Shown: in pieces, positions 19,185-41,904 of the stretch
Layout of the letters: the number at the start of each line of letters is the position of its first letter
How positions within the stretch are numbered: the first letter of the stretch is position 1
Assembly (NCBI GenBank): GCA_008330645.1
Contig: VLTN01000001.1
Coordinates: forward strand, 434,001-498,000
Direction of reading: 5' to 3'
Source of the DNA: Cafeteria roenbergensis
Taxonomy: Eukaryota > Sar > Bigyra > Bicosoecida > Cafeteriaceae
Length of the DNA: 64,000 nt
Position numbers and translations under genes: made by a program
The notes under the pieces: model-generated
What the model was told of the DNA's origin: nothing
The model's input: only the letters and a program-made list of their open reading frames with translations
Database searches by the model: none

Positions 19185-22100
19185 ATGCCGAGAGAAGTAG
19201 GCCCGCCAGCCGCGCACATGCGCCTCGCCGCCCCGCCTCTGGGCGCAGCCGGCCGGTTGGGAGAGACCCCGGTTGACCTGGGCGGACTGGCACGCAGCGT
19301 GCCTGAGCGGCCGACCTGCCAGGGAACGATGATGTTCATCGGGGGCAGCTGCAGAACGGCACTATCTCACCTGCGGGTCATCGACGGCTCTAGCAGGAAC
19401 TCGTGGAGTGCTTCGGCTGAGCCGGGCTCGAAGCTGACGGCGCGCAAAGCTGCCGTTGCTGACCCGGACGAGGTGCTTATGGGCTCGGGCTGGCAAGAGG
19501 CGACGCCTTGCCCTCCGCCAGCATTCTTAAGGATCCCAGGAGGTGAGGTCAGCCGTCATGTCCGGCCCAAGGCGCGCGCCCCTCAGCGCGCGCCTGCGGG
19601 CGTGCGGCTGCGGACCGGCGCAGCACTTGGCCGGTGGGAATCGCCGACGCAAGGGCGGCTGCGGCTGGCTGCAAGCGGGAGTCGCACCATGCATGCGTTG
19701 GAGCCTCGGAGTAGGTCCCTTGGCCCCCGCGTTCCTCGGCCTCCCGCCCAGCGTGGGGCTCTGCCGGGCGCGCCCGCGATGCGGCGGACGCCGTCCCAGG
19801 CAGAGGTAGTCCGGTCTGCCCCATCTGCGACGACAAGCGACGGGACACAGACAAGTAGAGCTCCACGCAGCTCCGCGAGGCGCAACGTCGCCCCCGGCCC
19901 GGACTCTTCTCGGGGCGTTCGGGCGCGCCTCGCCCGGCTTGTGAGGGCAGGGGACATGGACGCACTGGCCGACCTCGTCGGGCTGCTTGCGGCTGATTGT
20001 TCTGCGACAACGGCTGATGCATGGGCGCCACCCCGGCTGAGGCCTGCGGCATTGCAGCTGACAGCAGGCAACATCTGCGCTCAAGCTGCTGAGCTTCAGC
20101 TGCAGGCGTTGTCCAAGGCAAAGTTTCGCCCCGAATCATCCGGCCGAAGTGGGACTGCTGCGCTTGCGGCGGCATGCCGCGCCGAAGACAGCCCCGACCT
20201 TGCTTCGGACGAGGCAGGAGTGGTCGCACGTTCAAGCGGGCCCAAGTTTGCTGTGGACAAGTTCCGCTGCTCGAACCACCCGGTTCCGGATGAATCAGTC
20301 AAAGCTTGGTGCGAGCTGCTACAGAGGAGCCCGCTTGAGCGGAGCGACTCCGAGCTAGACGCCCTTGTGCAGCACCTGGGTCCCAGCGTGGGCATTCTTG
20401 AGCACCTGCCCGACCTGCTGCGCAGACGGTTTTTCCGCTACGCCACAGCAGTCTCCAGCCTGCCAGGGGACTTACTCTTCGAGCAAGGAGCGCAGGGCGA
20501 TGCGGTCTTTGTGGTCTTAAAGGGCATGGTTGCAGCGCAGATTGAGCAGCGAAGCACGAGGGACAGCTCCGACGTCGCAAAAATTTCAGCGGCAAACGTG
20601 ACTCGTGTGTACAGGGTCCGTTTCCAGTACTCCTCGCCACCAGAAAAAGCTCCCAGCGGGTCTGGCTCGGAGCTTGGCCAGGGAGAAGAATCTGTCCAGT
20701 CGGACTGCTCCGACGGCTCCAAGAATGGCTCAGGGCTTTCCCAGCGGGAGGCCAAGCGCGCGATGCCCTCCCGACGCAGCAATCCCCAGATGGGTGCACA
20801 ACAACTCTCTGCCGGTGACCCTTTCACGACGCGGGAGAGGCGCTGGTCCAAACGCTGGCATCGAGCGGATCAGCCGGACCTCTCCAGCGCGCCCAGGCAC
20901 GGCGTAGCTCGCGCGCTGCCATCTGATGCTCGACCAACCGCTGCCTTAGTCAGGGTGCGCAAGGCCCGGCGCGCGTCTCTCGACTCAGCGCTGTCACTTG
21001 GGACCGCCAGCAGCTGCGATTCCGGGAGCGGAAGCGATGCGAGCCTGCAATGTACCTCAGGGTTGATTTTGCACGGGCGCGGCAAGGCGGAGGTGCAGGC
21101 CGAAGAGCTAGTGCTGAATACTGTCGCGGTGCTGGGCCCAACGTCCTCGTTTGGCGAGAAGGGAGTTGTCGGCTCGGACCGAATCCGGAAGGCCAGCATC
21201 GTTGCCACAGAGCCTTGTATTTTGCTTCGCGTTCGAGGTGGTGTGCTGAGGTCCTTGGTTCGTGAGAATCGCCGACGCCAGAAGCTGCAGCTTCGAAAGG
21301 TTCTCAGGGCCAGTCCGGCGCTGCGACCGTTTTCTGACAGGGCGATTCGGTGCCTTGCGGATACAGCCCAGCATCGGCGATTTGGCCGGAGCGAGGCCAT
21401 TGCCAAAGAAGGAGACGTTGCTGATGGGGTATTTGTGATCAAGGCAGGAGTGGCAGTTGTTTCGAGGAAAGTGGCGTTGCCCCCTCAACTTGTGTCCGGA
21501 ATGGCCTGCCTGTCCGGCATAGGGGCCCAACTGTCGCCTGCACGGAGGGCCGACAAACTTTCGGCGCCTGTTCAGCTAGTTGGAGAACACGCCAGCTCTT
21601 CGACCGTGAGTTCGACGCCGCCCACATCTCCTCGGCGTCGAGGCGCGTTGGACACCCAAAGCAGGACGATATTGAATTCAATCCTGGACAAACATGCGGC
21701 GAAGCGCCGATCTGAGCCCAGAGAGCTCTCTGCTCCTGATGCTGAAGGCAGTCCAGCCGCTTCCCCAAAGTGCTGCGCAACGGAGCAGCCACAAGCTCGC
21801 GTCATTCCAGAATCCAGTGCTGGTCCAATTGCAGGTCAGCGCACCCACGGGCATCAGCCAGTGGATGCAGCGATCAGGCTCCTTGAGGCCGGAGAGATGG
21901 CAGGCTTCACCGACGTTTTAGCACAGTTTGCAGCGCTCAATCTTTCGGCACCAGCCGGGCACGCTGCTGACTCTGTGACTGAGTCTGCCGCTGAGCGCCT
22001 GGCCAGTTTGGGGGCCATCAGCGGCGGTGCAGCCCCTGGCAACAGGCACGCGTTGCGGCAGCTTCGCCGAGTGGATTGGAGCTCACTACAGTGGTCCGTG

Positions 22101-23369
22101 TCAGTGTCCGTGGCTCCCGAGTCGCCTGGCCCAGTTGACGTGGTGTTCTTGCCGCGTGCGGCGCTCGTCGACGTCGCATTGGCGCACCCTGAAGCTGTGT
22201 GGTCGAGCTTGGCGGCAGAGGCAAAGAAGCTGCCTGACGACGACGAGCTGAAAGGGCTGGTGTCAGAGAGGTTTGTGGGGCAGGTTCATGCCTTGGGCTG
22301 TGCTTCCGATGTCGAGGGCCGAGGACGGGACGAAGTCAGACCTGGCGGCCAATCGATGGTCAGAGAGTCTCGGCACTTGCCACCCTGCGGCCTAATGCAC
22401 CAGCCTTCGCAGGCTCGGTCGGCTCTGCCAAGACTACGGGCCGTGTGCGCAAGTCTCGGGGTCGGCACACCCATTGGCCACCAACAGAGTGCGCCGGCTC
22501 CCTCCTCTCTCTACAGCGCCCTCGCGGCGTGCGATGATGCAGGCAGCGGTTGCCGCATTCCGGTGCAAGGCCCGGCTCCAGCGCCCGTGCAGAGTGGACT
22601 TGCTGCAGCAACGAAGCGGACACCGGTGTGTGCCGAGCGTGTCCCGCACAGGACGAGGACGAGCCCGCGAAGCGGGACTCGGACGCGTCCTACGGTCGCG
22701 GCTCCGCCTGTTGGCCTTCGGTCCCAAACGGCTGCTGTCGTGGGTGCCGTTCGCGCATTGCTGGCGGGCAGCGCGAGCACAGCCGAGGCACGCTTGCTAT
22801 TGAGCCAGAGTGGCGTGTCAAGGCTCGAAGAGGCCGCCCTGCAGCGCGGCGACGCGCCAGCGTCTCCCGCGAGACCCGGCGCATCAGCCTTGCAGGTGTC
22901 CAGCGCAGCGAGCGCACCTCGCCCCAGCCTGCGTGACAGGTTGCTTGGATTGCCAAGTCGCCCTGGTAGCAGTGGCAGCCAGAGGCTTGCTGGTGGCTCC
23001 TCAGGCAGCGGTTGTAGCACGTCTACGCATCGCACCGACGCTCGCTTCGGGGCAGCCGCGGCCCGCTCGCTTCGCCTTCAGCAACCGCTGTCTGGTCATT
23101 CGCAAGGATTGGGGCCTGACGGCGAGCCGGACGAGGGCAATCTTCTCGTTGCTGGCGATACCAGCATCGCAGGCGCAGCCAGGGCACTTACCGCCAGAGG
23201 ATTGACCACGGCAGCGAGGAAGATGTGCGCGCACGCGCTTGCATGGGCGGACCGAGCAGACGAAGTCGCGCAAGACGCGGAAGGGCCCTCAGGCGATCTA
23301 CGGCGTCCGCCGCATGCGGTCTTGCGACAGGCCCTGTTGTCCCCGGCCGCAGTGCAAGCGCAGGACTGA
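19185..23369 (+). CDS. Large protein with two cyclic-nucleotide-binding-type domains
   Basis: The frame is open for 1394 residues from the first ATG at 19185. The true start is uncertain: 19218 and 19689 are alternatives and upstream exons are possible. The N-terminal 250 residues are Arg/Pro/Ser-rich. The first cNMP-binding beta-roll starts at about residue 415 (LPGDLLFEQGAQGDAVFVVL). It is interrupted by a 160-residue Ser-rich insert and resumes with VLGPTSSFGEKGVVGSDRIR at about residues 650-672, where FGE and the following Arg correspond to the phosphate-binding cassette. A second, degenerate domain begins at about 715 (LRPFSDRAIRCLADTAQ, then IAKEGDVADGVFVIKAG) and closes after another long insert near FLPRAALVDVALAHPEAV. 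It lacks an obvious FGE cassette. The last 350 residues are low complexity. No transmembrane or kinase domain is visible, so it may be a cytosolic or ciliary cAMP/cGMP sensor. Confidence 0.75.
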   Translation: MPREVGPPAAHMRLAAPPLGAAGRLGETPVDLGGLARSVPERPTCQGTMMFIGGSCRTALSHLRVIDGSSRNSWSASAEPGSKLTARKAAVADPDEVLMGSGWQEATPCPPPAFLRIPGGEVSRHVRPKARAPQRAPAGVRLRTGAALGRWESPTQGRLRLAASGSRTMHALEPRSRSLGPRVPRPPAQRGALPGAPAMRRTPSQAEVVRSAPSATTSDGTQTSRAPRSSARRNVAPGPDSSRGVRARLARLVRAGDMDALADLVGLLAADCSATTADAWAPPRLRPAALQLTAGNICAQAAELQLQALSKAKFRPESSGRSGTAALAAACRAEDSPDLASDEAGVVARSSGPKFAVDKFRCSNHPVPDESVKAWCELLQRSPLERSDSELDALVQHLGPSVGILEHLPDLLRRRFFRYATAVSSLPGDLLFEQGAQGDAVFVVLKGMVAAQIEQRSTRDSSDVAKISAANVTRVYRVRFQYSSPPEKAPSGSGSELGQGEESVQSDCSDGSKNGSGLSQREAKRAMPSRRSNPQMGAQQLSAGDPFTTRERRWSKRWHRADQPDLSSAPRHGVARALPSDARPTAALVRVRKARRASLDSALSLGTASSCDSGSGSDASLQCTSGLILHGRGKAEVQAEELVLNTVAVLGPTSSFGEKGVVGSDRIRKASIVATEPCILLRVRGGVLRSLVRENRRRQKLQLRKVLRASPALRPFSDRAIRCLADTAQHRRFGRSEAIAKEGDVADGVFVIKAGVAVVSRKVALPPQLVSGMACLSGIGAQLSPARRADKLSAPVQLVGEHASSSTVSSTPPTSPRRRGALDTQSRTILNSILDKHAAKRRSEPRELSAPDAEGSPAASPKCCATEQPQARVIPESSAGPIAGQRTHGHQPVDAAIRLLEAGEMAGFTDVLAQFAALNLSAPAGHAADSVTESAAERLASLGAISGGAAPGNRHALRQLRRVDWSSLQWSVSVSVAPESPGPVDVVFLPRAALVDVALAHPEAVWSSLAAEAKKLPDDDELKGLVSERFVGQVHALGCASDVEGRGRDEVRPGGQSMVRESRHLPPCGLMHQPSQARSALPRLRAVCASLGVGTPIGHQQSAPAPSSLYSALAACDDAGSGCRIPVQGPAPAPVQSGLAAATKRTPVCAERVPHRTRTSPRSGTRTRPTVAAPPVGLRSQTAAVVGAVRALLAGSASTAEARLLLSQSGVSRLEEAALQRGDAPASPARPGASALQVSSAASAPRPSLRDRLLGLPSRPGSSGSQRLAGGSSGSGCSTSTHRTDARFGAAAARSLRLQQPLSGHSQGLGPDGEPDEGNLLVAGDTSIAGAARALTARGLTTAARKMCAHALAWADRADEVAQDAEGPSGDLRRPPHAVLRQALLSPAAVQAQD

Positions 23370-27157: not shown

Positions 27158-30100
27158 TCACGACTTGTTCACCGCATCAGTGCAAGCCCGTAGCGACATG
27201 ATCGGCAGCGACTTCAGCGACTTTTCTACTTGAACAAGCGTGGTTGCAATCATTCCCTCTGCAAGTCCTTTGCGCTCGTACATGCGCTGGTACGCCTCCA
27301 GAGCGTTGAACAGAGCAGATTCGTGGGCTGGGCCAGATGTAGCGGTCAAGTCCTCTCCTGCAGTGGCTTCCCCAGCATCGCCAGGAGCCAACCCGACACC
27401 AGCGCTCGGCTTCGGCGCGGGCAGCCGACGCCGCAGAGTGAACACTCCAGAGCTCCACAAAGCAATCAGCGGCTGGATATCGTCCACTGAGGGCAAAGGG
27501 GCAGCGGCGGCGGCGGCGGTGGCGGCAGCGGCGGCGGCGGCGGCGGCAGCAGCAGCACCTTCAGGAGCAGCAGTCATGGAGGGCGAGGGCTTCCGGGCGA
27601 ACAGGACGAGTCGGACGGCCTGAGTCGAATCAGGGAACCGCAGCAACAAAAACAAAGCCCGTGCCGATTCGTTCCACGTTGCCAAATCCTTGCGTTGCCA
27701 CGACCTTGACGCAACTGCAAGGAGCGATGCGAGCTGGTCGTCCAGTTCGCTTCGCGAAGCGCCTTCGTCGGCTGGCGGTCGGTCCAGCGAGCTGACGCTG
27801 GCGAGCATCGAGCTCCAAGCAGCCATGCCCTGGGTGCCACAAATCGCTCCCAGCGGGCAGAAAGGCGACGTGGCCGCAATCCACAGTGCCACCAGCCCGG
27901 AATCTGCGCCTTCTAGCGACCGGCACAATTCGTCGTCAGCCTCGCGTGACACCACACTGCCAGGCATGAAAGGAAATTCAGAACTCATTGACAGAGGGGT
28001 GCAGCCTGCAATGGCGTGCGAGTCCGTGCCCGAAGCCAGTGGCATGGTCTGGCAGTCCGCAAGTCTGCTGCCCAGTTCCTGGCCAGCTCCGGGGTCGTAC
28101 TTGATCGCCACGCCAACAAGCCCGCCACTGAACGAGATGCCGTCCGTTCCGTTATCGACGGGCAAGAATTGGCCAGGTCTCGATATCGCTGGAATCGTCA
28201 ATTGCCCCGCGCAAGCGAACCTCCAAGTTGGGCGAGTCGCAGCCACCAGCACCACGTCAGGGTCTGAGCAGTTGGAAGACGAAAGAGATGGGCACGCTAC
28301 AACGCTGCGAAGCAGGCCATGCACGTCGTCCCTTCTCCCGCCTCCTCCGTCGAATTCAAGGCGGACAGTCGCGCATGCGCGCGACTCAGCCGCGGCGAAA
28401 GTTGCTGCCACCGCTGGTGCTGCGATCTGGGAGGACAGGGGGCCAGGAGTCGAGTGCCTGGGGGCGACTTCCGAATGTGGCAGCTCCATGTGCTGCAGCC
28501 AAGCTGCGGCCGCAGCCGACGACAGTGGAGTGACTTCGGACAAGAAGTTCATTTCCTCCGACTGCGAGGGCTTCTTGCAGGCTGCTTGAAGGGTGCGCAG
28601 CAACTCCTGAGCAGCGCTCTCATCGGCTCCGGACTCCGCGCGCCCATGCTGGCCTACGAGGAGGCGTTCCTGGCTTCCCCAGTCGCTTGTGGGTTGACAC
28701 TGGTGGGGCCCAAAGGGGTAGCGGCAGATCAAGTCCGCAGAGGCCGTGGGCGAAGCGCTGCAGTCCCGAACCAGGCCGCTCGTGAGCTGGGACACTGCAC
28801 GAGCAGTGTTGCTCTCCGGCCCGCCTAAAGGCACTCTCAGAGACACAGTTGCGTGTTCGCACTCCCTCGACTCGAAGGGAAGCTGCGTGGCCACTGCCTC
28901 GGGCGCTTCGATGCGGGCGGCGGCTCGATCTCCTTCCCCAGCGACGAGCTCCGCACGCACGCAGACCCTTGCTGCAGCCCTCCTGATGTCCTTTGGCACA
29001 ACGCCGACACTCATCGCCAGCCAAATATCGATGGGACCAACCCGGAACGGCAGGAACAGTCGAGCCCGACCGCCAGGGCAGTCAGACGGCAGCTTGGTCG
29101 CTTGCAGCACAAGGCCATCAGAGTTACACAGGCAAAGAAAGTCGTGTCGCGTGTCATGCGGAGCGATCCAGCCAACTTCCACCACTTGGCCGCTGACCAA
29201 AGCCAACGGCGGGCTGTTGGCAGAGCTGCTGGACGCGAACAAACCAGTTTCGGGATCTGACACCGTGAGCCGGGCCCAAGGACTTGGGAGCTCGCGTGGC
29301 ACGCGCTCGAAAGGCACATTGGCAGTCCAGGCAACGTCGGCTGGCATCCGCCGGACGGGATGGCCTGTCAGGATGAATATGCTGGTCGGAGCGGAACCGC
29401 TCGCCGACACTGACCTGACCGCGCAATGACGCGTTGCTTCCACAAGCACGGGCCTTAGCCTGAGCTGAGACCGCAGGGCCCCGAGGGGGGGGGAAGGCCT
29501 AGTGCGCGCTGCGCTGGCCAATTCAACGGTGGCAGGCGTACATCCGTGCACTGAGTTGCCCCAGGAATATACCTGCCCGCGCTCGGAGATGGCCGAGAAA
29601 CTGGCGACGTCCAGGCCTGCAAAGACTGACACGAAGCGCACTGGGAGCCCGTCGTCGCCTAAGACTGCGTCCACAGGGCACATGCTGTTCATCGGCCTGC
29701 TGGGCTCTGGTCCGCAAGCAACAGCCTCAGTCTCTCCCATGGAAAACAACTGGCCAGCCGCTGAGATCGCGCAGACTCCTGAGCTGTTGCAGGCAACATC
29801 AACAAACCTGGTGGTGACATCTGGGCAGAACTGCTGATGGGAGGCTCCTGCTAAGGCGTACGCGGCCCTCACAGCACTTGAGGGCGGAGAGGACTCAGCA
29901 GAGCCATCTGTTGCGACGAATGACAGCACTGCCTGCGACTCCGCGCTGACACGACTCGAGTTGGAAGAGTCTACTTCGCCGTCTGAGTCCGTGTGCTGGC
30001 TGCCAGCATTGCTGAGGCTGCCTAGTGCACAGAAGCAGCTCACCTGCCGCGGAGCCGCCCGCTCTCGTGGGCCAGAGCGGAAATGCTGCCTCCCAGAAAA

Positions 30101-33100
30101 AAGCAGCACACCGTCCGAAGTCAGCGCAACGGTCCAGGCTGGCGCTGGAGCAATTTTGACAACTGGGCCCGAAAGAGGGACTCGCTCTGGCGACAAGACA
30201 CCAAGGGAGTGGCCCAAGCCAAGCTGCGAGTCCGAGTTGCGCCCCCACGCGAAACAGAGGCCGCCAGCAGCAATTGCGAAGCTGGTGTGTTCGCCCGCAA
30301 ACACCTCAGACACATGGACTCGCTGCAGTCCGGGAACGACCTTGGGCGGGCCGCAAGTGACCCGTCCCCCCAGGCCAAGGGCCCCCTCAGAGCCGTCGCC
30401 CGATGACATCACGCGGCCTTCGGCAGAGGCAAAGAGGCAGTGCGACTTTCCACAGGCAAGTACCCGAACGTGGCGGCCTGCCAGAGCAGACACTTCGCAA
30501 GCCGGTGCTCCGGCCGGCGAGGTCCCCGTATCTGCCTGTGCCAAGCGCGACAGGGGGACGCGCGAAGTGTGCTTTGCGGGCCACGACAGCACGCGCCCGA
30601 ACGATGTGACGGCAAAGCAGGCCTGCTCCGAAACGCCGAGCTGGGAGATGGTTTCGCTTTCAACGTCAGCATCGTGGCCGCTTCCAGCAGAGGAGGTTGC
30701 ACGCAACAAGCTCCCAGTCGAAGAGGCGGATGCTGCGAGCGAGCTCTCATGCCGCAAGGCGGGACCACTTGAAGCAGTTGCCGCAGCGCACAGAGGTGAA
30801 TGGTGCTCATGAGCACTCTCGCTCTCGCGAGATGCGAGCGTCTGGCTCAAGTCTGGCGCCCGAACCATGCTTGGCACCTCCAGTGGCTGGGCCGGACCAA
30901 GCAAGCGAACCCGAGGAGTGGTTCGCCCGTAGCCCAGGGCGGCCAGATCTGAGCGACCGTGGGCGGCCCAGTCCACGGAGTCCGGCTCTCCATCATGGAA
31001 TGCCAGCCGTGTTTCGATTCCGCAGGACCCCCAAGTGAAGAGCTGGCCTTCGAACTCCGAGCCTGGGAGGCGCGGCACCAGGTTTTGCCTGCGAAGCACC
31101 ATTGCAAGGTGCTCACGGTCGGCCTCTCGCCAATCAAGGAGCCGAGAGAGGGGCGCAGAGGCTCGCAAATGGAGGTGCTCCGGAGTGCGAATCGCCCGAG
31201 CCCAGGCCCCGATGGATGTTGCCCTGCCCAGCGAGACATCGCTATGGAGTCCAGGCCCAATTGTCATGTCTCTGGCAGCATGGGCGACGATGTCAGGCCG
31301 GTTCTCGGCAACAATTTGCCAAAACGCAAGCTCGTTCCCACGAAACGCGCTCGCGATGGCATCGGAGCCTTCTGATGCAAGCACGGGCGCTGTCAGCGGG
31401 TTCCCGGTCCACAGGTGGAGCGCAGCGGAGGCAAGTGCAGTTGCATGGGCTTGCCGTTGCTGCCGCAAAAGAGCAATGCACATGCTGTTGAGGATGGAAA
31501 TTGAACTTGGATGCGGGTTGGGGCTCGTTCCGCCACTGGCTAGCAGAGTCAGCACTAGAGCCTTTCGGAAGGCCACTTCAGCAGCAGCAGGGCGGTTTTG
31601 AGCCAGCTCGGCATTTCCGAGCACGGAAAGCGCAGCCACCAACGTGGACGCAGGAGCAACAACATCTCGATTTGCCCCTGCGGCGCGCATCTCAAGCGCA
31701 GATGTCAGCGTGGCAACGGCCTCCTCGAACCGGGACGCGGACACCAGGAGGTCGCACAGGTCGACAGTCGCAGAGAGGTGCTCTTCCGAGCCACACCCAA
31801 AAATCTCGCCCATCGTCTGGGCTAGCGTCGCCGCCTCTGCCAAGGAGAAGACGAGAGATTCGACCGACGTGGGATCAGCACCGAGCGAGGACAGAATTGA
31901 GGCCTGTGCCACGTCGGGGGACCATCCCCAGTCCGGGGCAGATGGGGTTGGGTGAGGCGGAGTGGACAAACTCTTGGTGATGCCATGGGAGTGCCAGCCT
32001 TTCAGCTCGACGACCTCCACGGCGAAGAGCCCGACACCCGAGACCACCACAGCTGGGTGGAGTCCGACCGCCGAAATTCCAGAAACAGTTGCGTCCAAGT
32101 GCACGACTGGCCCGGTGGCCAGTGTGATGCGAAGGGACCTTGAGCGGCAGCTCACAAGCAGGGACACGGTGAACGGGCCCTCTGGGACGTCCTGAGCAAC
32201 TGCATTGGACACTCTCCCGTTCGGGCCTGCAACAACCACAGCCTTGGAGTGCAAGAGCTTCACGCCAACGAGTCCGCTGGGTGGTCTGTCCGTCCAGCCG
32301 GGCACACTGAGAGGAGTTTCTGCCATTCCAAAGAACAGGCCATTCCGGGCTCCGTGGCATCGGAACTCCACGAGGAGAACGCCCGGAGAATCATCATCTG
32401 GCTGGCCCTCGTCCGCGGAACAGGTCGCCTTCACGGGCTCAGCACCGCTGGAAGGTTGGGCTGGCCAGCTCATCAGGTCTGCAGCCGCCGCGCTGGCCAC
32501 CGCAGCTGCCGGAGATGTTCCTGTGGCCGAGGATTCTGTAGCGAGACCGGATTCTGTCCTTTGCACGTCTCGAATTGTGGCAACTGCGCACAAGCTCACA
32601 TCTGGAGGAAGCGAGCTTCCATCTGGTCGAAACACGGACATGCGCCTTCCGCAGGTCGACACCGAGCACTTCCCAGCGGAGAGAAGCGGGTCAAATGCAA
32701 GCACTCGCGAAGAGCCTCCTCTGGCACCCTGGCGTGCCCCGGGGGTGGCGCAAGCGATTTTGATAGCGCTCATGACCTGTTCGTCCTTGAGAATGCTCGT
32801 AATCCGCGTGTCAATGCATTCGATGTCGGACGAGGCGAGCGGCTCCGTTCCGCGGAGGTCCCAGTCTTCGAACGCTTGCAGCTGAGTCTTGACGTCTGCT
32901 GAGGCCGCTGAGGGGGAGTGGTCGTGAGCTGCCATGCCCCGCGCGTCCTCAAGCAGGTGCCTGCCTAAGCTAGAGCCGCCCCAACTGGCACGAGGGAAAC
33001 CCCGGGCCCCAAGGATGTCATGACGGCCAGTGCCGTCCGACCACTCAGACAGGCCATAGTGGATGCCAAATCGAGACATGAGCGTCTCTGCGTCGTGCTG

Positions 33101-36088
33101 GGAACCATGATGGACATTTGCGGTCGCAGAGGTGTCGTCAAATGCTGGCGCTGAGAGGCGCGTCAGCGCTTCCCCGGGTCGGATGCATACCACTCTGTCA
33201 GATGGCAACTCGAGGGAGCGAATGTCGCGAACCAGCGGCCCAGAGAGCATTGGCGCAGCAGCCTCAGCAGAGGGCGGTCGCTGCTCCTGGCTTGACCCTG
33301 TTGAGGTGCTCCTCCGCTCTTCCAAGGCAGCGAGCGTGTCGGAGAGCGTAACGATCCACGCTGGTCTGACCAGCAACCCGGAAGCGCTAGCTATTGATGA
33401 TGCAAGTCCAAGGTAAGGAACCCCGCTCCGCAAGTCAAAGGTGGCAGAGAGCTCCGTTGGGGTCAGTGGTTGCGCGTGCGCTCCAAACTTCAACCGCAGC
33501 AGCAGAGGGAGCCTCAGCTTCCACCATGCAACGGATGCCTCACCTCCTCCGAGCAGGCCGTTCAAGGCAAGCCGCGCTGCCTCGCTGACTGCAGTCTGGG
33601 CCCCCTGTACAGAGGTGGCATTCAGCCCTTCCGCTGCCTTCCGCATCGATTCACGGAGGCTCGCTTTTGCAGTTCGAACCACCATCGCCGAGAGCGCGAA
33701 GGCCCGAGCCCTGATTGCAAGTGCGATGCGGCCGGCCTGCCCGGCAGTGCCAACTTTGGCCGGGGCCGCAGCTGCAATTGCTGATCGAACCAACCCGATA
33801 TGCCGAACATTGACACCGTGCCTCTTTGCAACAGCCACGAGCTGGTCTGGCTGGACAAGCTGCACACCGTCGATCATTTCGTGCGCCGCTTGCGCAACCA
33901 AGTGCTCCGTCGTCACCCGCGTTGCCGTGGTTCCCCTCGCGTTGTGAGCCTGCGCGTCGTGCACCCCGAACCCAGTGAAGGCATCGGCCGACAGTGGGAA
34001 TGGGAACGCCATTACTGCCTCCGGCCGCATTACATGGGCCAAGTGCTGACCTTTCTCGCCGCTGACGAGCATGGCCCGCCCGAACACCTGCCTCCCTAGC
34101 AAAGCCGTCGCCATGGAATTAATTGATGTGCCAGGTGGGGCTGCTGAAGTCCGCGAAGCAGCGCCTTCGTTCCGCTGAGGGGTTGGTGAGTGCCCTTTCA
34201 CGCACCCATGTCGAGCAATAAGGCTCGCACCCTGAATCTGGTGCAACTCCACGGCTCCTCTGAGCAGCCGCTCGAGTTCAGCGATGGCGCTGGTTCGTGT
34301 CAAATCCACGCTCGAAACCAAGCTGGCCATGCGAGCCAGTCGCTCCGCTGGGCTTTGCTTCGCTGGCCCGGCGCCAGGCCGCAGCACCTCATCGTCGTCG
34401 TCGGCTGGCAGCAGAAAGCCAGTGATCGTGTGTCGAGGCGCCTCGGGTGGCAGCAACCTAGCTGCGTCAAGAAGGTAGGCATTTCCGTCGTGAGCTCGGT
34501 GGATTTCGACGTCTGCGCCGAAACTGACGGTTGCAAACTGGCTGCCGCGGCCAACGCGGTGCTCTCGCAAGTTGAGCGCAGCGCCTAGGTCTTGTGCCGC
34601 CCTATTCACCTCTGCGTCATCGTTGTGCACCGTCACGCCAGCGTCCGAACTGCCGTAGACCAACGTTCCAGCGGATACTGGAAGGCGTGCCGCAACGAGC
34701 ATGCGTAGTCCTGCGACATCAACCTGAACGGTTGGAGCGACTCGAATGGCTGGGTGGTGCGCCGCAAGAACGAGCCCCAAGTGCAGGCGCTCCAGTCCGG
34801 CTGTCTTCATTGCAAAAGCATCGCCGCCATACAATCCTGAGGAGTCGCGAGCCAGTTTGACAAAGAAGTCTCCCGACACGAACTTCTCTCCGCCCGCATG
34901 GCCTCCAACGTCGGCCTTCCGCCAGCGCCGAAGGCCAGGAGCCAGCCCGGCTTCTAAAGCAATGTCCATACCCATGGTGGAGCTGGAATTGGCGAAGCTA
35001 CAAAGTTCAGCACGCAGCCGCTTTAACCGCTCCAACCCCTCTGCAGCGGAGCGCGGCCGCAAATTGAGCGCGGCCTGGAACCTCGCGTTGAGGCCGATAG
35101 GTTGCTCGTCCGAGAGGGGGTCGCGTGATGGCCCACCTGCTGGCGTGCCTTCAAGTCCCGCTGCTGCTGAGAGAGCGGCGACAACAGGGGTGGGCGGACT
35201 TGCCTCAGAGGTGGCGTGCCTCAACTGCGGCCGCTCCGCTTCGTCCAGGACAGCCGCGTAGCCGCCTCCCGCCCCGGCAGCAGCGGGCTCCGTTGCGGCG
35301 GGCGCCGTGGCAGCGGGCTCGGCGACAACTGGCGCGACTGCCGGGTGCTCGTACTGCGGCCGCTCCGCTTCGTCCAGGACAGCTGCGTAGCCGCCTCCCG
35401 CCCCGGCAGCAGCGGGCTCCGTTGCGGCGGGCGCCGTGGCAGCGGGCTCGGCGACAACTGGCGCGACTGCCGGGTGCTCGTACTGCGGCCGCTCCGCTTC
35501 GTCCAGGACAGCCGCGTAGCCGCCTCCCGCGCCGGCAGCAGCGGGCTCCGTTGCGGCGGGCGCCGTGGCAGCGGGCTCGGCGACAACTGGCGCGACTGCC
35601 GGGTGCTCGTACTGCGGCCGCTCCGCTTCGTCCAGGACAGCCGCGTAGCCGCCTCCCGCGCCGGCAGCAGCGGGCTCCGTTGCGGCGGGCGCCGTGGCAG
35701 CGGGCTCGGCGACAACTGGCGCGACTGCCGGGTGCTCGTACTGCGGCTGGGCTTCGACAGCAGGCCCCACTTGCGGCTCGTTGCGCCATACCAAGGAGCT
35801 AGGTGAATCGGCAGGAGCGCTAGCGCGATGTTGTGCGGTTCCGTCGGAGGGCAGCCTCACCGCCCTGACATCGCGTGCCGGACCGCTGTTGTGTCCCGGA
35901 TGCTCGTCATCGCGACTGCGAACGCCCTTGGCAGGCAGAACTGCGGCCTCAAGGACACCGATTCGTGTTGCCAAGCTGGACAGCCTGTGTGAGACTTGCG
36001 ACTCAAGCGCCTGGACTGTTTGCGTCAGTGCTCGAAGGCTGCGCTCGATGCGTTCGAGGCGCGGGCTCTGGGAGTCCCCGAGAGCCAT
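27158..36088 (-). CDS. Giant CLU-domain / SPRY-like / TPR-like / RCC1-repeat fusion protein
   Basis: One uninterrupted exon encodes 2976 residues from the ATG at 36088 (MALGDSQSPRLERIERSLRA). The frame is open further upstream, but that part overlaps the ZIP gene in another frame. Residues 1-60 form a coiled coil. Four 43-residue repeats occupy about 115-290. The CLU domain spans about 330-765, with KLARDSSGLYGGDAFAMKTA, TLVYGSSDAGVTVHNDDAEV and NAYLLDAARLLPPE, close to CluA/CLUH, and RHGVNVRHIGLVRS closing it. A SPRY/concanavalin-like stretch lies near 1230-1375, then helical TPR-like repeats near 1405-1545 (AELAQNRPAAAEVAFRKALV). RCC1-type beta-propeller repeats span about 1665-2260 (GQLFTWGSCG, GLCFAWGRNSDSQLGLGHS, GQVYSWGNSVHG). 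A beta-sandwich-like segment follows (VVEVGWIAPHDTRHDFLCL). The C-terminus is novel, with a poly-Ala run. CLU proteins bind mRNAs for mitochondrial proteins and control mitochondrial distribution; RCC1 propellers often regulate GTPases. The combined role is unknown. Confidence 0.85.
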   Translation of the reverse strand: MALGDSQSPRLERIERSLRALTQTVQALESQVSHRLSSLATRIGVLEAAVLPAKGVRSRDDEHPGHNSGPARDVRAVRLPSDGTAQHRASAPADSPSSLVWRNEPQVGPAVEAQPQYEHPAVAPVVAEPAATAPAATEPAAAGAGGGYAAVLDEAERPQYEHPAVAPVVAEPAATAPAATEPAAAGAGGGYAAVLDEAERPQYEHPAVAPVVAEPAATAPAATEPAAAGAGGGYAAVLDEAERPQYEHPAVAPVVAEPAATAPAATEPAAAGAGGGYAAVLDEAERPQLRHATSEASPPTPVVAALSAAAGLEGTPAGGPSRDPLSDEQPIGLNARFQAALNLRPRSAAEGLERLKRLRAELCSFANSSSTMGMDIALEAGLAPGLRRWRKADVGGHAGGEKFVSGDFFVKLARDSSGLYGGDAFAMKTAGLERLHLGLVLAAHHPAIRVAPTVQVDVAGLRMLVAARLPVSAGTLVYGSSDAGVTVHNDDAEVNRAAQDLGAALNLREHRVGRGSQFATVSFGADVEIHRAHDGNAYLLDAARLLPPEAPRHTITGFLLPADDDDEVLRPGAGPAKQSPAERLARMASLVSSVDLTRTSAIAELERLLRGAVELHQIQGASLIARHGCVKGHSPTPQRNEGAASRTSAAPPGTSINSMATALLGRQVFGRAMLVSGEKGQHLAHVMRPEAVMAFPFPLSADAFTGFGVHDAQAHNARGTTATRVTTEHLVAQAAHEMIDGVQLVQPDQLVAVAKRHGVNVRHIGLVRSAIAAAAPAKVGTAGQAGRIALAIRARAFALSAMVVRTAKASLRESMRKAAEGLNATSVQGAQTAVSEAARLALNGLLGGGEASVAWWKLRLPLLLRLKFGAHAQPLTPTELSATFDLRSGVPYLGLASSIASASGLLVRPAWIVTLSDTLAALEERRSTSTGSSQEQRPPSAEAAAPMLSGPLVRDIRSLELPSDRVVCIRPGEALTRLSAPAFDDTSATANVHHGSQHDAETLMSRFGIHYGLSEWSDGTGRHDILGARGFPRASWGGSSLGRHLLEDARGMAAHDHSPSAASADVKTQLQAFEDWDLRGTEPLASSDIECIDTRITSILKDEQVMSAIKIACATPGARQGARGGSSRVLAFDPLLSAGKCSVSTCGRRMSVFRPDGSSLPPDVSLCAVATIRDVQRTESGLATESSATGTSPAAAVASAAAADLMSWPAQPSSGAEPVKATCSADEGQPDDDSPGVLLVEFRCHGARNGLFFGMAETPLSVPGWTDRPPSGLVGVKLLHSKAVVVAGPNGRVSNAVAQDVPEGPFTVSLLVSCRSRSLRITLATGPVVHLDATVSGISAVGLHPAVVVSGVGLFAVEVVELKGWHSHGITKSLSTPPHPTPSAPDWGWSPDVAQASILSSLGADPTSVESLVFSLAEAATLAQTMGEIFGCGSEEHLSATVDLCDLLVSASRFEEAVATLTSALEMRAAGANRDVVAPASTLVAALSVLGNAELAQNRPAAAEVAFRKALVLTLLASGGTSPNPHPSSISILNSMCIALLRQQRQAHATALASAALHLWTGNPLTAPVLASEGSDAIASAFRGNELAFWQIVAENRPDIVAHAARDMTIGPGLHSDVSLGRATSIGAWARAIRTPEHLHLRASAPLSRLLDWREADREHLAMVLRRQNLVPRLPGSEFEGQLFTWGSCGIETRLAFHDGEPDSVDWAAHGRSDLAALGYGRTTPRVRLLGPAQPLEVPSMVRAPDLSQTLASRESESAHEHHSPLCAAATASSGPALRHESSLAASASSTGSLLRATSSAGSGHDADVESETISQLGVSEQACFAVTSFGRVLSWPAKHTSRVPLSRLAQADTGTSPAGAPACEVSALAGRHVRVLACGKSHCLFASAEGRVMSSGDGSEGALGLGGRVTCGPPKVVPGLQRVHVSEVFAGEHTSFAIAAGGLCFAWGRNSDSQLGLGHSLGVLSPERVPLSGPVVKIAPAPAWTVALTSDGVLLFSGRQHFRSGPRERAAPRQVSCFCALGSLSNAGSQHTDSDGEVDSSNSSRVSAESQAVLSFVATDGSAESSPPSSAVRAAYALAGASHQQFCPDVTTRFVDVACNSSGVCAISAAGQLFSMGETEAVACGPEPSRPMNSMCPVDAVLGDDGLPVRFVSVFAGLDVASFSAISERGQVYSWGNSVHGCTPATVELASAARTRPSPPLGALRSQLRLRPVLVEATRHCAVRSVSASGSAPTSIFILTGHPVRRMPADVAWTANVPFERVPRELPSPWARLTVSDPETGLFASSSSANSPPLALVSGQVVEVGWIAPHDTRHDFLCLCNSDGLVLQATKLPSDCPGGRARLFLPFRVGPIDIWLAMSVGVVPKDIRRAAARVCVRAELVAGEGDRAAARIEAPEAVATQLPFESRECEHATVSLRVPLGGPESNTARAVSQLTSGLVRDCSASPTASADLICRYPFGPHQCQPTSDWGSQERLLVGQHGRAESGADESAAQELLRTLQAACKKPSQSEEMNFLSEVTPLSSAAAAAWLQHMELPHSEVAPRHSTPGPLSSQIAAPAVAATFAAAESRACATVRLEFDGGGGRRDDVHGLLRSVVACPSLSSSNCSDPDVVLVAATRPTWRFACAGQLTIPAISRPGQFLPVDNGTDGISFSGGLVGVAIKYDPGAGQELGSRLADCQTMPLASGTDSHAIAGCTPLSMSSEFPFMPGSVVSREADDELCRSLEGADSGLVALWIAATSPFCPLGAICGTQGMAAWSSMLASVSSLDRPPADEGASRSELDDQLASLLAVASRSWQRKDLATWNESARALFLLLRFPDSTQAVRLVLFARKPSPSMTAAPEGAAAAAAAAAAAATAAAAAAPLPSVDDIQPLIALWSSGVFTLRRRLPAPKPSAGVGLAPGDAGEATAGEDLTATSGPAHESALFNALEAYQRMYERKGLAEGMIATTLVQVEKSLKSLPIMSLRACTDAVNKS
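27501..27558. repeat. GCG/GCA trinucleotide run encoding poly-Ala
   Basis: An almost pure GCN triplet run lies inside the C-terminal part of the CLU-RCC1 gene. In the minus coding frame it gives about 19 alanines with one threonine. Such tracts are length-polymorphic. Confidence 0.9.
35225..35740. repeat. Four 129-bp tandem repeats inside the CLU-RCC1 gene
   Basis: The marker ctgcggccgctccgc starts at 35225, 35354, 35483 and 35612; a partial fifth begins at 35741. This gives an exact 129-bp (43-codon) period. Copies differ by only a few bases. The encoded unit contains EHPAVAPVVAEPAATAP and GGGYAAVLDEAERPQ. Confidence 0.97.
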
Positions 36089-36237: not shown

Positions 36238-37637
36238 TCAGAGGTTCGAGCCTCCCAATGCGTACCCCACGGCGGCAAAAGCGCAAACACCAGTCAGGAA
36301 GGCGGCCCATCGCCATGCAACGCTCAACTCGTTGCGACCCGGCTGCACTTGTAGTGCTGGGAGTAGAATTTCTACCAGCGACACAAAAATGAATGTTCCA
36401 GCAGCCAGGCCCACGGCAACCACGTCCACCCACGGGCTGGCAATGACGGAGTTCATGACCACGCCCAAAACAATCCCCACTGGGGTTGCCAGCCCGAAAA
36501 TCATTATCGCGGGAGCAGCTTTCCAGCAAGTTACGCCGGCACACTTGAACAGCTGTCCCAGAGCGAAGCCAGCAAAGCCCTTGTGCGCCACAACAGCGAC
36601 GACGATGCCGATCGACGAGGCAACTTCTCGCTGGACCCCAATGCCGATGCCCTCCAGGAGCGAGTGCAGTCCCAGAGTCGCAGACAGTAGAATGGCCGCC
36701 CCTGTGTTGGGTCCTGCCATCGAATGCCCATGGCTGTGCACCAGTGCCCGCTGCCGGGGAAGCACTCCGCCTGCAGCCGCCGCATGACACTCCAACGACT
36801 CGGCTCCATCGCCCACAACAGGAGGACGAAGCGCATGCGTCTCGTCAGCTGCACCACGTACGCCCACCTCGTCGCAGAGCTCCTCGCACATGCTCGACGC
36901 GCCGTCCGCTCCGTGGAGGGAATCCAGCTCACCATCCTCAGTGTCTCCCTCTGCACTGGCCTCGGCGGCCGAGCCGACGCTGTTCATGCGGCTGCCAGCG
37001 GCCGACGATTCTGATTCAGGCTCGGCTGTGGGGAGTCGCAGCGCAGCAGGAGATGTGGTTCGAGCGCAGCACGCGTCAACGTCAATCTGCTCAATTGCAG
37101 CAGGGATGAGCAGCCCAAGAGCGACGAAGATGTACGGTGTCGGGAGGCCTTGGATGTGAAGCAGCGTTGCTGCCAGAACCAGGTCCGGCAGCAAATGCAA
37201 GACCCCAGCTCCGAAAAGAACCCCGCCTGCAGCGATCGAGCACCGCAGGAGAGCGACAGTGACACTGGCGACATGCAAGCACCCAAGACGCCGGAGGGAA
37301 CCTCGGATCAAGAGTGTGCGCAACGAGCGTGAGGCGCCAAGGCGGCCAGCACAGCTGAATGTTGCCCCCGCCTGCTTGCCCCCCCCCCCCCCCCCCCGGG
37401 TCCAGCCCCAGCGGCTCCCTCATGTCGCGATCGAATAATTCCCCACATCCACAGGCGCGAGGAACAGGGCCACGCACCAGCCAAACAATTGAGGGCGATT
37501 TCCCACCACTTGCGGTCTGCGCCAGCCACTCCCCCAGTTGACGACGGCAACACGAAGGGAAGGAATCCACCACCGAGGCCAAGTACCAAAATCAAAACCG
37601 CCCCGGCCCCGATCGTCCACTCCACCTCAGACCCCAT
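36238..37637 (-). CDS. ZIP-family (SLC39) zinc/metal transporter
   Basis: Two exons: 37637-37478 and 37226-36238, with a 251-bp intron (GTGCGT...CTGCAG). The product is 382 residues. Splicing restores LNCLAGGVLFGAGVLHLLPD, the classic ZIP helix 1-2/2 boundary. About eight transmembrane helices are visible. The central loop is acidic, then carries a His motif (HSHGHS). Helix 4 has LGLHSLLEGIGIGV and helix 5 has VAHKGFAGFALGQLF, supplying the H/E metal-site residues. The protein ends ALGGSNL at a TGA. Family members import Zn2+ or Fe2+ into the cytosol from outside or from organelles; the compartment cannot be told. The stop is only 149 bp from the start of the CLU-RCC1 gene on the same strand. 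The intron contains a C19 homopolymer at 37379-37397. Confidence 0.92.
37379..37397. repeat. C19 homopolymer in ZIP gene intron
   Basis: Nineteen consecutive C on the plus strand, immediately followed by GGG. It lies within the ZIP intron, where the transcript would read poly-G. The length is likely to be unreliable in the assembly. Confidence 0.95.
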
Positions 37638-37855: not shown

Positions 37856-40321
37856 TCAAGCCCTGCGCAGCGCCGACCCACCCACTGCCAAATTCAGCTT
37901 TGGAAGACCCCCCCCTCCATCGGAGAGCGCCACGGAGGGCGTATGTATGCTTCTAATGGTGCGGCCCGCCCTTGGCGCTCGGCGGCTTGGCAACTCCAGC
38001 GGCCACCCTGCGTCGCCCGTGGCTTCCCGAGGCGACCTCAGTGGTGGCGTCTTCGCGCTGCCCACGACTTGCATGGTCGACATCCGGGTGGCAATGGCGG
38101 GAGGTTGAGCTGCTGCAGAAGCAAGAGTGCGGCTTGTGGCGCGTGTCCCATTTGCAGCTTGCCTTGGTGGCGCTCCGGATGCCAGCCTCCGGTCGGTCGA
38201 CGCTCTTGCCAGCGGCTCCGCCGCCCGTTCCCGGAGAAGCCTTGCAGACGAACACGGTTGTCCTTGCCCCGACCCAAAGGGTGATTGCAAACGGTTGGTT
38301 TCGGGACGGCCGGAAGCCGGAAGCATCGCGAGGCCGGAGAGGCACCTCCCAACAAGCTGCGGAAGCTCACCCGTTGGTTCTGTTCCTTTCCTTTTGGGCA
38401 TGGAGCGGCCGATGAGGCGCCCCCGGGCGGAGCTCTTGTCAGGCCGCACTCCGGCCCGGCCTCTTCCTCTCTGCCCGGTGGCACTGGGCGTGCGATGCCC
38501 CTGCCCCGCAAGGTGGAGGGGGTGTCCTGCGACACTTGGCGGCGCTGCAGGTGCGTCCTTGCAGAAACCAGCAGCTGTGGCGGGGACTCTCGGCTCGGAA
38601 CGCGCTGGCTTCGGCCGATGCAGCAGCCCTGGGAAAAGCAGGGCCCGCCAAGGCACACTCTCGCTGCGTCGACTCGCAACATGCCTGGCTTCGTCGACGA
38701 TGCCGGGGCTGGGATCAGGGGGTGCTGCTGCTTGGCATGCCGGACAAGCAAGGTCACGGGATGCCAACTGCCCTCGAAGGCACTCTTCGTGGACGCAGTG
38801 ACCACAGGGGAGGACCCGGCCCACCCTTGAAGGCGGCGCTGGCGCACTGGCCCCGGGCGCCGCCGCACCACCAGCTCGGCCACAGTGCCGAACGAGAGCA
38901 CTTGCAGTGCCTTCATCAAGCACAGGGATGAGGGTTGAGCACATTGCACACGGCAGTGGCTCGTCGCCCGCGCAGCAGTCAAAACCAGAGCAGAGGTGTT
39001 GCACGAGCGTGAGCGCGCCACCGTCCAGGGAGAGCAGCAGTTCGTAGTCACTTGGCGTGAGCTCCCTGCTCTGCAGCTCGAGCATCGCTGCGGCGCTCGC
39101 CGACGAAGCGGACGTGGCGCTTGCGCTGTGCGCCGGTCGGCGCGCGCGCAAAAAGGCCGACGCAGACCTGAGCCCCGCCAAGGCAGGCCCGCGCCGCTCT
39201 GCGACCTCCCAACCCGACCATGTGGTCAAATCGTCAGTACGTCCGGCTGGAAGACTTCCATGGCGACTAGCAAGACTTCGCCGCTGCCGACGACTCGCCT
39301 TCTTCCCGCCAGAAGCAACGTCGGCCGGTGCAAACGGCGTGTCCAGGTACGCCCGGAACGATGTGGGCAGCTGCGTGGCCGTGGCCCTGCATAGGAATAC
39401 ATGCTCCGGGTGGGCTCCCGCAAAGAAGCACTCCGAGCACAGGTCCAGCCCTCGAGAGTGAGATGCCGCTCGATGGCGGGCCGGCCCGCTTGCAGCTTTG
39501 GGGCATTGAAGGCAGCGGAACCGCCTCCCCACGATCGGGCCCCTGCCGCAGGATCCACAGCGGACTCCCCTGTGGACTGCCGGCGGGTGCCTCTTCAGGT
39601 GCTCTGCGGCATCCCTCCGCAGGCGTGATGGGTCGGCTTTGGTGCCCCAGTTTGCCCGACAGAGCGGGCAACTCACAGCATCCCCGGAAGCCTGCTTGTG
39701 CTCCGCCCACACTCTCATGCATCGATTATGTACCAGGTTGTAGCACTGCTCGCACCCCACGAGCGCGTCTTCTGGAGACATGGTGTCCATGCAGATCGGG
39801 CAGCTCTCGCCTGGCTCCAGCGCTCGACGACCGCTCGCCACACTGCCCTCGCCAAGACTCCTGGCATGAGGCGGCATGTCCCCTGATGATCCAGTTGCAC
39901 CACTTTCAGCCGGCGCACTCCTGCCTGGGCCCTGACCTCGAGCCGAGGCTGAAGCAAGCAACCTCTCGATTTCGGCGTCAGTGAATGACAGTTGCCACAG
40001 CAGGGGGTCCGTACTCGCCAGGCCCAGGACGCGGTGGAGCACAAACATGGAGTGCTTGCAACAGGCCTCTGCGGCGCGGTCTCCAGAGCAAAGGCTGCAC
40101 GTCAGCCGGTGTCCGAGGCTGACAACCGTTTTGACGCGCTCTTGCCCGGCCGCTGAGGGGCGAAGCTCGACCAATGTGAAGGAAGTTGCACCCCTCCGCC
40201 CCACGAGTAGCAGGTTTGCGGCAGTGGCTCCCTTGTCCTCCGACGAGAGCACCGAATCCAAGGCGCGTTCGGCTGAGGGGGGCATGGAATGCACCCACGG
40301 GCAGGCTCTCCCAGCCGCCAT
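37856..40321 (-). CDS. ZSWIM2: ZSWIM2-like E3 ubiquitin ligase (SWIM, RING, ZZ, RING)
   Basis: ATG at 40321 gives 821 residues; 40285 (MPPSAERALDSV) is an alternative, and an earlier exon is possible. A SWIM-type zinc finger lies at about 70-97 (LTCSLCSGDRAAEACCKH), followed by the family-typical LTxAEIERLL-like segment. RING 1 lies at about 170-223 (CPICMDTM, CEQCYNLVHNRC, CPLCRANW). A ZZ finger lies at about 254-307 (CGSCGRGPIVGRRFRCLQC, DLCSECF). RING 2 lies at about 457-530 (CAMCSTL, LPCGHCVHEECL, CPACQ). Between ZZ and RING 2 is an Arg/Ser-rich linker, and after RING 2 a 290-residue low-complexity tail. The order SWIM-RING-ZZ-RING is that of ZSWIM2, an E2-binding ligase of mammalian testis. 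The role here is presumably ubiquitin transfer; the substrate is unknown. Confidence 0.88.
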   Translation of the reverse strand: MAAGRACPWVHSMPPSAERALDSVLSSEDKGATAANLLLVGRRGATSFTLVELRPSAAGQERVKTVVSLGHRLTCSLCSGDRAAEACCKHSMFVLHRVLGLASTDPLLWQLSFTDAEIERLLASASARGQGPGRSAPAESGATGSSGDMPPHARSLGEGSVASGRRALEPGESCPICMDTMSPEDALVGCEQCYNLVHNRCMRVWAEHKQASGDAVSCPLCRANWGTKADPSRLRRDAAEHLKRHPPAVHRGVRCGSCGRGPIVGRRFRCLQCPKAASGPARHRAASHSRGLDLCSECFFAGAHPEHVFLCRATATQLPTSFRAYLDTPFAPADVASGGKKASRRQRRSLASRHGSLPAGRTDDLTTWSGWEVAERRGPALAGLRSASAFLRARRPAHSASATSASSASAAAMLELQSRELTPSDYELLLSLDGGALTLVQHLCSGFDCCAGDEPLPCAMCSTLIPVLDEGTASALVRHCGRAGGAAAPGASAPAPPSRVGRVLPCGHCVHEECLRGQLASRDLACPACQAAAPPDPSPGIVDEARHVASRRSESVPWRALLFPGLLHRPKPARSEPRVPATAAGFCKDAPAAPPSVAGHPLHLAGQGHRTPSATGQRGRGRAGVRPDKSSARGRLIGRSMPKRKGTEPTGELPQLVGRCLSGLAMLPASGRPETNRLQSPFGSGQGQPCSSARLLRERAAEPLARASTDRRLASGAPPRQAANGTRATSRTLASAAAQPPAIATRMSTMQVVGSAKTPPLRSPREATGDAGWPLELPSRRAPRAGRTIRSIHTPSVALSDGGGGLPKLNLAVGGSALRRA

Positions 40322-40504
40322 TTCGCCGCAGCCCAGCCCTCCCCCCCGCACTTCCGCGTGTGCAGGACACGCGCTTCTTTGTCAGGCCACTCCTCGGGTG
40401 CGCTGCCCTTGAAGCCAGCCACGCCCGCGCCGAGGAGCCGGCGCCGCGCTTGTGTGCGCAACTGCTGTGCCTCAAATATGAATCTCAACTCGCATGCCAG
40501 TTTG

Positions 40505-41904
40505 CTACTCTGCAGCCGCAGCCAGACCGAGGGCCACGCACACATCTCGGCGAGCCGCAGCGGCCAAGTCGTGCAGGTTGCGCCCTCGGATAAAACCATG
40601 CTCAGGTGCTTCCCCAGAGTCGGGCACCGGCGGCAGCATCTGACAAGGAAGCCCGAGAGAGTCGACGACGCGCTGAGGAATGGCGTACACGGGAGAGATC
40701 GCCTGGCAAGGCACGCCCGTCGCCGCGAGGTGGCCGAGCATGGCGAGTCCCGCGAGCCCAAAGAAGGTATGGTATATGTCGGCTTGGTCATCGGGCCGGT
40801 CGGCGATTCCACCAGCGTCGGCGTCCTGGCATTGCAGAATGAAGCGGGTCAGGTCTGAGCGCGAAATCCACGACTCCCTTCCAAGCATCAGCATGCAGCT
40901 CAAGTCCCACCAGCTGTAGCAAACGTCGGCTTGCTTTTCGGGGCGGCCGTTCAACCCGCCGCTGTCGCACTGGCGCTCGGCTAGCCACCAGCCAACCAAG
41001 TCGGCGTCCACATCACCGAGCCGACCCCCCACAGACAGCGCACCAAGACAGCAAAACACTTGACCACCGTGACTCTCGCCTCCTGGGGTGGCCCCAAACG
41101 AGCCGTCGAAGTTCTGGCACGAGAGGACAAAGTCGCATGCCGCGCTGACGTCGACTGCGTCTAGCTTTCCGAGCAACGCACACGCTGTGAGGGCGCAATA
41201 CGAAAAGCGGGTGTCCACCTCACCCCCGAGGTCCCCCACAAAGGACCCATCCGGTTGCTGGAGCGACGCAATGTACGCAGCCGTGAGCGAGGCGTCGAAG
41301 AAGCGAGTGCCTTCGCTCGCCTCCGCCAGCCCGTGCAAGTGGCTCGGGGATCCGGAGGCAGCGACTGGGGCACCCCCTGCCACCCGAAGTTCCCCTTGGC
41401 TGGTGGAAACTTCGGCGAATGCGTCCACCATTGCAAGAATTTGCAGCGCGCTTAGAGTGTAGAGGACGTGAGACCTGCGGCCCGGGCTTCCCGAGAAGCC
41501 GCCATCGGGCTGAGCGCAAGAGCGGATGAAGGCCACGAGCGCATCCCTGTCAAAGCACTCTGATGTGGCGTCGACCTGCGTGAAAAACGAGTTGCAGCTG
41601 GCAGGGGCCGGGCTGTTGGTCTCGAGAGGTTCGCCGGGTCGGGGCCGGACTCGTCCGCCCTGCCTTGACAAACGACAATGCTCACCAGATCCGCCGCACC
41701 GAGCGCCCAGTAAACTGCGCTCATGCGCAAGTACTGCACCGCGTGCAGCTCCAGGGACTGCGTGGAGTCCTCCGAAGCCACTGCCTTGATGAACTGAACG
41801 TGCTTCTCTCGCCACAACTCCACTCCGTACGCGCGCTCGGCTTTTGCGGCCCACCCCAGCGGGCTGCTCGGGCCCGATGGGGCCCCGGGGCCGTCGATCT
41901 CCAT
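40505..41904 (-). CDS. RABGGTB: Rab geranylgeranyltransferase beta subunit
   Basis: Two exons: 41904-41686 and 41575-40505, with a 110-bp intron (GTGAGC...ACGCAG) in phase 0. The product is 429 residues from [11 protein letters not shown]. Splicing joins [16 protein letters not shown] to [17 protein letters not shown], as in animal and yeast orthologues. Prenyltransferase beta repeats follow: [51 protein letters not shown] and [20 protein letters not shown]. The zinc ligands are visible as Asp and Cys in ADVCYSWW and His in [10 protein letters not shown]. With RabGGTA and Rab escort protein it attaches two geranylgeranyl groups to Rab C-termini. The protein is about 100 residues longer than the human one (331), mostly through a linker after the first repeat and C-terminal sequence. 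Its start is 207 bp from the divergent kinase gene. Confidence 0.95.

Follow-up and report, generated by a model that had tools for sequence, protein, structure and literature searches.

Does the flagellate Cafeteria roenbergensis encode a single protein in which a CLU domain is joined to an RCC1-like propeller and, if so, what kind of protein is it? The question was raised by an initial annotation of a 64,000-nucleotide stretch of contig VLTN01000001.1 (positions 434,001 to 498,000; the whole of this stretch is referred to here as the window), which described a CLU domain, a SPRY-like fold, TPR-like repeats, RCC1 repeats and a new C-terminus within one exon. We analyzed the reading frame, each of its segments and the CLU family of the genome.

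One open frame carries the CLU and RCC1 parts

The gene occupies positions 27158..36088 of the window as one open frame, which yields 2,976 residues when translation is counted from the first ATG; these coordinates and this length agree with the initial annotation, and the coding strand is the minus strand. The open frame itself extends from a GTG at 36790 down to the stop at 27158 (3,210 codons) and its first ATG, at 36088, is frame residue 235. Residue numbers given below refer to the 3,210-residue frame unless indicated as ATG-based (frame number minus 234). From base composition alone, the probability of 3,210 open codons occurring by chance is about 10^-37. The six frames were compared in 100-codon windows by means of a codon score that had been trained on 11 open frames other than this one. 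In 28 of the 30 codon windows that begin at or after frame residue 201, among them those that separate the CLU and RCC1 parts, the gene's own frame ranked best of the six; the remaining two start at frame residues 2001 and 2301. The gene's frame ranked below the best in the two codon windows preceding residue 201, as expected if translation begins at the ATG (residue 235). The third-position GC content of the gene (0.66) is slightly under that of the 11 training frames (0.68-0.86).

The gene located directly upstream, at 36238-37323 on the minus strand, encodes a ZIP zinc transporter (PF02535, E 2.2e-30). It is read from the same strand in a different frame, overlaps the non-coding start of the long frame and ends at a stop at 36238, about 150 bases 5' of the ATG; the position of this stop supports the ATG start and bounds the gene on that side. 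A coding-like stretch at 36400-37200 was considered as a 5' exon and rejected, as it corresponds to the transporter with its own stop. The gene is real, and its presence in a single exon, as claimed earlier, is supported at the level of sequence by the open frame and the codon score.

Most of the window has a GC content of 62-68%, outside a tract at 27-11930 that consists of about 12 kb of tandem repeats (78-80% GC, periods up to 390 bp) and in which three plus-strand frames are open for 3,087-4,166 codons. Neighboring frames encode a cyclic-nucleotide-binding protein (19173-23369), a RING-finger protein (37856-40351), a prenyltransferase toroid domain (40505-42178), an Rpn13-type proteasome subunit (44736-45938) and an adaptor medium subunit (47074-48162). 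A further open frame of 1,588 residues (48432-53198, minus strand) has its best Pfam match at E 0.17, and none below 0.1.

The CLU domain and the segments that follow it

The N-terminal part contains, at 35224..35747 on the minus strand, about four near-identical repeats of 43 residues rich in Ala and Pro (129 bp x 4.1, 99% matches with Tandem Repeats Finder). They are followed by the CLU domain announced by the initial annotation (PF13236, E 7.1e-29; 34439..35089, minus strand, frame residues 568-784), which scores 101.6 bits and passes the Pfam cut-off of 24. In a genome-wide search with PF13236 this domain is the highest-scoring single stretch; the canonical CLUH of the same genome scores higher when its pieces are summed (198.6 bits). 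CLU_N (PF15044) gave no match in the N-terminal segment at E<=10 in Pfam, and no NCBIfam family was obtained for the protein at E<=0.1. The CLU segment had no match among the sequences of solved structures at E<=5, and a 17-row CLU profile yielded two matches at E<=10 that look like chance matches, the best being a dehydrogenase (E 0.016). An AlphaFold model of the segment, made with no relatives in the alignment, reached a pLDDT of 35. A kinase-like fold for CLU, a lead suggested by the look of its motifs, was dropped; no paper linking the two was recognized among the publications listed.

Downstream of CLU, a central block located at 33782..34123 (minus strand) is common to the gene and to its closest CLU paralogue, L031 (30.5% identity over 131 columns, 52.4 bits, E 8.7e-9 by blastp in a database of only 11 proteins). 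A weak eIF3_p135-like (CLU-central) stretch was identified at 33608..33847 on the minus strand (PF12807, frame residues 982-1061), with an E value of 0.024 for the whole protein and 0.0032 for the segment (18 bits, under the cut-off of 22). Weak TPR-like helical repeats are present further on, at 31550..31771 on the minus strand (frame residues about 1674-1747). The TPR-like repeats described earlier are weakly supported, by matches that are all under the Pfam cut-offs (TPR_12 on the segment, E 1e-4, 22.9 bits for a cut-off of 30.1; TPR_1, E 5.8e-4). When the 1,116-residue segment extending from the central to the TPR-like part was searched against the proteins of the whole genome, only the gene itself was recovered at E<=10 (three candidates scored).

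The SPRY-like fold of the initial annotation fared less well. The stretch most likely meant lies at 31991..32392 on the minus strand, and frame residues 1455-1620 were used as the segment. Pfam gave no SPRY family on the whole protein (E<=1) and no family at all on the segment (E<=10, PF00622 included), and the segment matched only itself in the genome at E<=10 and had no relatives among phage records. A SPRY profile built from 5 of the 22 SPRY matches of the genome scored 11.7 against the segment with hhalign, a score that was equalled or passed by 11 of 30 shuffles, and elsewhere in the protein 166-residue windows reached scores as high as 15.6; with hmmsearch the same profile gave E 0.2 and -0.7 bits. 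The AlphaFold model of the segment, again with no relatives in the alignment, had a pLDDT of 32; both models are too poor to inform on the fold. The SPRY identity is therefore unsupported by Pfam, by the genome search, by a profile from the genome itself and by modelling; a missing sequence signal does not exclude a SPRY fold.

An RCC1-like propeller with long inserts and an unmatched tail

The RCC1-like part lies at 29540..31048 on the minus strand, with seven candidate blades separated by long inserts. PF00415 matches with E 1e-17 (64.9 bits, over the cut-off of 21.7) and WD40_RLD (PF25390) with E 1.7e-38 on the segment (133 bits, under the curated cut-off of 150). The blades, expected after residue 1660, are present from about residue 1681 (ATG-based), so that the central claim of the initial annotation holds: CLU and RCC1 share one open frame. 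To score individual blades, a profile was made from nine repeats of three other RCC1 loci of the genome, chosen by a typed pattern. The scores were 4.6 bits at frame residue 1915, -2.0 at 2058, 26.5 at 2105, 25.3 at 2157, 1.0 at 2219, 9.0 at 2328 and 13.1 at 2400, with an additional low match at 1945 (-2.9 bits). Six of the seven candidates exceed the best of 50 shuffles (0.7 bits), four clearly and two marginally, and one falls below it. The order of the blades fits a seven-bladed propeller with long inserts, one predicted blade being unproven. When the propeller was cut into eight pieces, Pfam listed an RCC1 family for four, in two of them only at E 0.003-0.2.

RCC1 repeats are abundant in the genome: at least 149 matches were obtained with 150 of 353 candidates scored, and contig C62 carries many of them. 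Among the matches listed, only two, at 464.1-464.4 kb of contig C1, fall in a CLU frame, as judged by eye. Because of this abundance, the propeller alone says little about function. RCC1 itself acts on Ran as an exchange factor. In many cases, propellers of this type are binding modules with no catalytic activity. The propeller examined here is probably a protein-docking module; at E<=1, Pfam listed neither a HECT nor a RING family for the protein.

The C-terminal ~790 residues (27161..29539, minus strand) belong to no recognized family. Pfam gave no match at E<=10 for the whole tail nor at E<=5 for three pieces of it, in agreement with the new C-terminus proposed earlier, and the last 711 residues matched nothing else in the genome at E<=10.

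A separate canonical CLUH and a diversified CLU family

The genome (36,303,456 bases in 167 contigs) was searched for other CLU genes, and 20 PF13236 matches were found in 17 frames. One of them, on contig C53, is taken as a separate canonical CLUH, with matches to CLU_N (7.5e-9), CLU, eIF3_p135 and TPR. Its CLU domain is interrupted by inserts, and its weak TPR_12 match (26.7 bits) is likewise under the cut-off of 30.1. As a canonical CLUH is encoded elsewhere, the gene is an extra, diverged copy; the difference from canonical CLUH stressed by the initial annotation holds, RCC1 being added and no CLU_N being listed. Fifteen of the 17 CLU frames were scanned with Pfam (L025 and L026 were left out) at thresholds ranging from 1 to 0.001, and among the matches listed RCC1 was found in a single frame, that of the gene studied.

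When the 17 CLU domains were placed in a tree, the query, the canonical CLUH, L030, L031 and L009 form a set of five with a support of 99/96; the query, CLUH and others were flagged as long branches, for which the tool warns of false joins, so neither this grouping nor the order inside the five is safe. With at least 17 CLU frames, five of them CLUH-like, CLU has diversified well beyond one canonical CLUH in this genome. The twelve other CLU frames (L015, L017-L026 and L032) stand apart in the tree, where eight have short branches; their CLU scores are near the Pfam cut-off, and TPR arrays are present in all ten that were scanned.

The closest relative by blastp is L031 (2538-9128 of that locus, 837.5-844.1 kb of contig C1). 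In the database of 11 proteins, it matches the query over 198 columns with 34% identity (E 1.9e-12) and through two more colinear blocks (E 2.5e-5 and the central block described above), and its CLU domain has the highest identity to that of the query in the alignment (35%). L031 in turn matches L030, in which CLU, eIF3_p135 and TPR_12 occur in that order, over the cut-offs; this chain of matches lends indirect support to the eIF3_p135-like stretch of the query. No RCC1 was listed for L031 at E<=0.1 in Pfam. Its C-terminus is unlike that of the query and no tested piece of it passes a Pfam cut-off; it ends in a cysteine-rich stretch with sub-threshold zinc-finger matches only. The two genes, as two examples compared by sequence, suggest that the C-terminal parts of a CLU chassis have been exchanged. 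Against the set of five in the tree stands the poor match between the query and the canonical CLUH: by blastp (E 0.003) the latter ranks behind L031, L009 and several CLU-TPR members such as L018 (8.7e-5) and L032 (5.6e-4), and its identity to the query is the lowest in the alignment (18%).

A proposed reading: a diverged CLUH paralogue with an added docking module

Combined, these results lead us to prefer, with a probability of about 45%, the reading that the gene product is a CLUH/Clueless paralogue, specific to its lineage and strongly diverged, in which a chassis made of the CLU, central and TPR-like parts is extended by the RCC1-like propeller and a new C-terminus. The protein would be a cytosolic scaffold: the chassis would bind RNA, the ribosome or organelle and cytoskeletal partners as in CLUH, and the propeller would dock a protein that is not a partner of canonical CLUH. 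By analogy with CLUH, the most economical reading is that the CLU, central and TPR-like body may keep a CLUH-type role to which the propeller would add a partner. This reading is favored by the CLU match (7.1e-29), by the RCC1/RLD match (1.7e-38), which relates the propeller in sequence to those of UVR8, HERC and RPGR, by the grouping in the tree with the canonical CLUH of contig C53, by the colinear blocks of L031 and the match of L031 to L030, and by the need of Drosophila Clu for its Clu and TPR domains. Several observations weigh against it: the TPR and eIF3_p135 matches are under their cut-offs, CLU_N is missing from the matches listed, blastp matches the canonical CLUH poorly and at low identity, the tree has long branches that may be falsely joined, the genome search with the central-to-TPR segment lists only the gene itself, and no relative outside this genome was confirmed among viral contigs. 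To our knowledge, it remains to be established how CLUH acts with its partners.

The main rival is that the gene encodes a CLU protein of large size with a structural task at the cell cortex or in the flagellum, rather than an RNA or mitochondrial factor, with the propeller and the long unique tail serving as docking surfaces. It is kept in this place because FLAM3 provides a precedent for a different role of CLU: the accessible text of the publication describes it as a repeat-bearing protein of the trypanosome flagellum attachment zone with an N-terminal CLU domain (PMC4541047). The N-terminal tandem repeats and the long unmatched tail of the query would suit such a role. The query CLU nevertheless groups with the canonical CLUH of the same genome in the tree, and the block shared with a CLUH-like paralogue comes after CLU; a structural protein by analogy with FLAM3 seems unlikely.

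It is improbable that the propeller works as a guanine-nucleotide exchange factor in a protein that couples CLUH-type cargo to a small GTPase, the kind of coupling suggested by the initial annotation. Beyond the activity of RCC1 on Ran, mentioned above, this reading can call upon chains named regulator of chromosome condensation, which match the propeller at E 3.8e-12 to 5.1e-12. These are outscored by other solved structures, the best matches being UVR8 (E 2.4e-24), HERC1, HERC2 and RPGR; moreover, RCC1 repeats are common in this genome, and one of the seven candidate blades scores below the best shuffle and two are marginal. Exchange-factor activity is possible, with nothing here in its favor.

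We give little credence to a broader version, in which the fusion would physically tie a scaffold of the CLUH type, for RNA/ribosome or organelle, to a propeller-controlled regulator, either a GTPase or one of the ubiquitin type. Bicosoecid flagellates would then have a set of CLUH-like paralogues whose C-terminal modules are exchangeable, and the gene would be one member of it. Where two modules are fused in nature, a functional link may be suspected, in this case between the CLU chassis and the partner of the propeller; unless the fusion is conserved in other species, this is a weak hint.

Lastly, it is very improbable that a frame left open by chance makes two genes, or exons that are never joined, look like a single gene: the published Cafeteria annotation counts 1.67-1.89 introns per gene (PMC6972860), which makes unseen splicing possible, but the low probability of 3,210 open codons arising by chance and the codon scores, including those of the CLU-RCC1 interval, both speak against it.

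Comparison with known systems

No protein combining CLU and RCC1 was found in our searches of the open-licence literature, in line with the initial annotation, which was aware of no description of this architecture, and no relative of the RCC1 segment or of the CLU-central segment was confirmed among viral contigs. With CLUH, Clueless, CluA and Clu1 the protein shares a CLU domain over the cut-off, followed in the same order by weak eIF3_p135-like and TPR-like stretches, and the grouping of its CLU domain with that of the canonical CLUH of the genome. It differs from them by having no detected CLU_N, by the RCC1 propeller and unmatched C-terminus, and by a length more than twice the ~1,300 residues given for CLUH by the initial annotation. 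For Drosophila Clu, the accessible part of the published work reports that the Clu and TPR domains are both needed for function, that mRNA association depends on the TPR domain and that ribosomes are bound at the mitochondrial outer membrane (PMC4823986). The likeness to FLAM3 of Trypanosoma brucei, drawn from its description, is a CLU domain in the N-terminal part of a repeat-bearing protein; FLAM3 differs by repeats of ~567 residues located towards the C-terminus, and RCC1 is not mentioned in the portion of the text available (PMC4541047). L031 shares the highest CLU identity and two further colinear blocks with the query, and differs in its C-terminus and in having no RCC1 listed. The RLD proteins UVR8, HERC1/2 and RPGR share the RCC1 repeats and are the closest matches among solved structures; the query differs from them by the long inserts between blades, by the CLU chassis to which the propeller is attached and by having no listed HECT. 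The protein is thus a new combination of known parts, and the fusion is a modest domain shuffle in a genome where RCC1 and CLU genes are both numerous.
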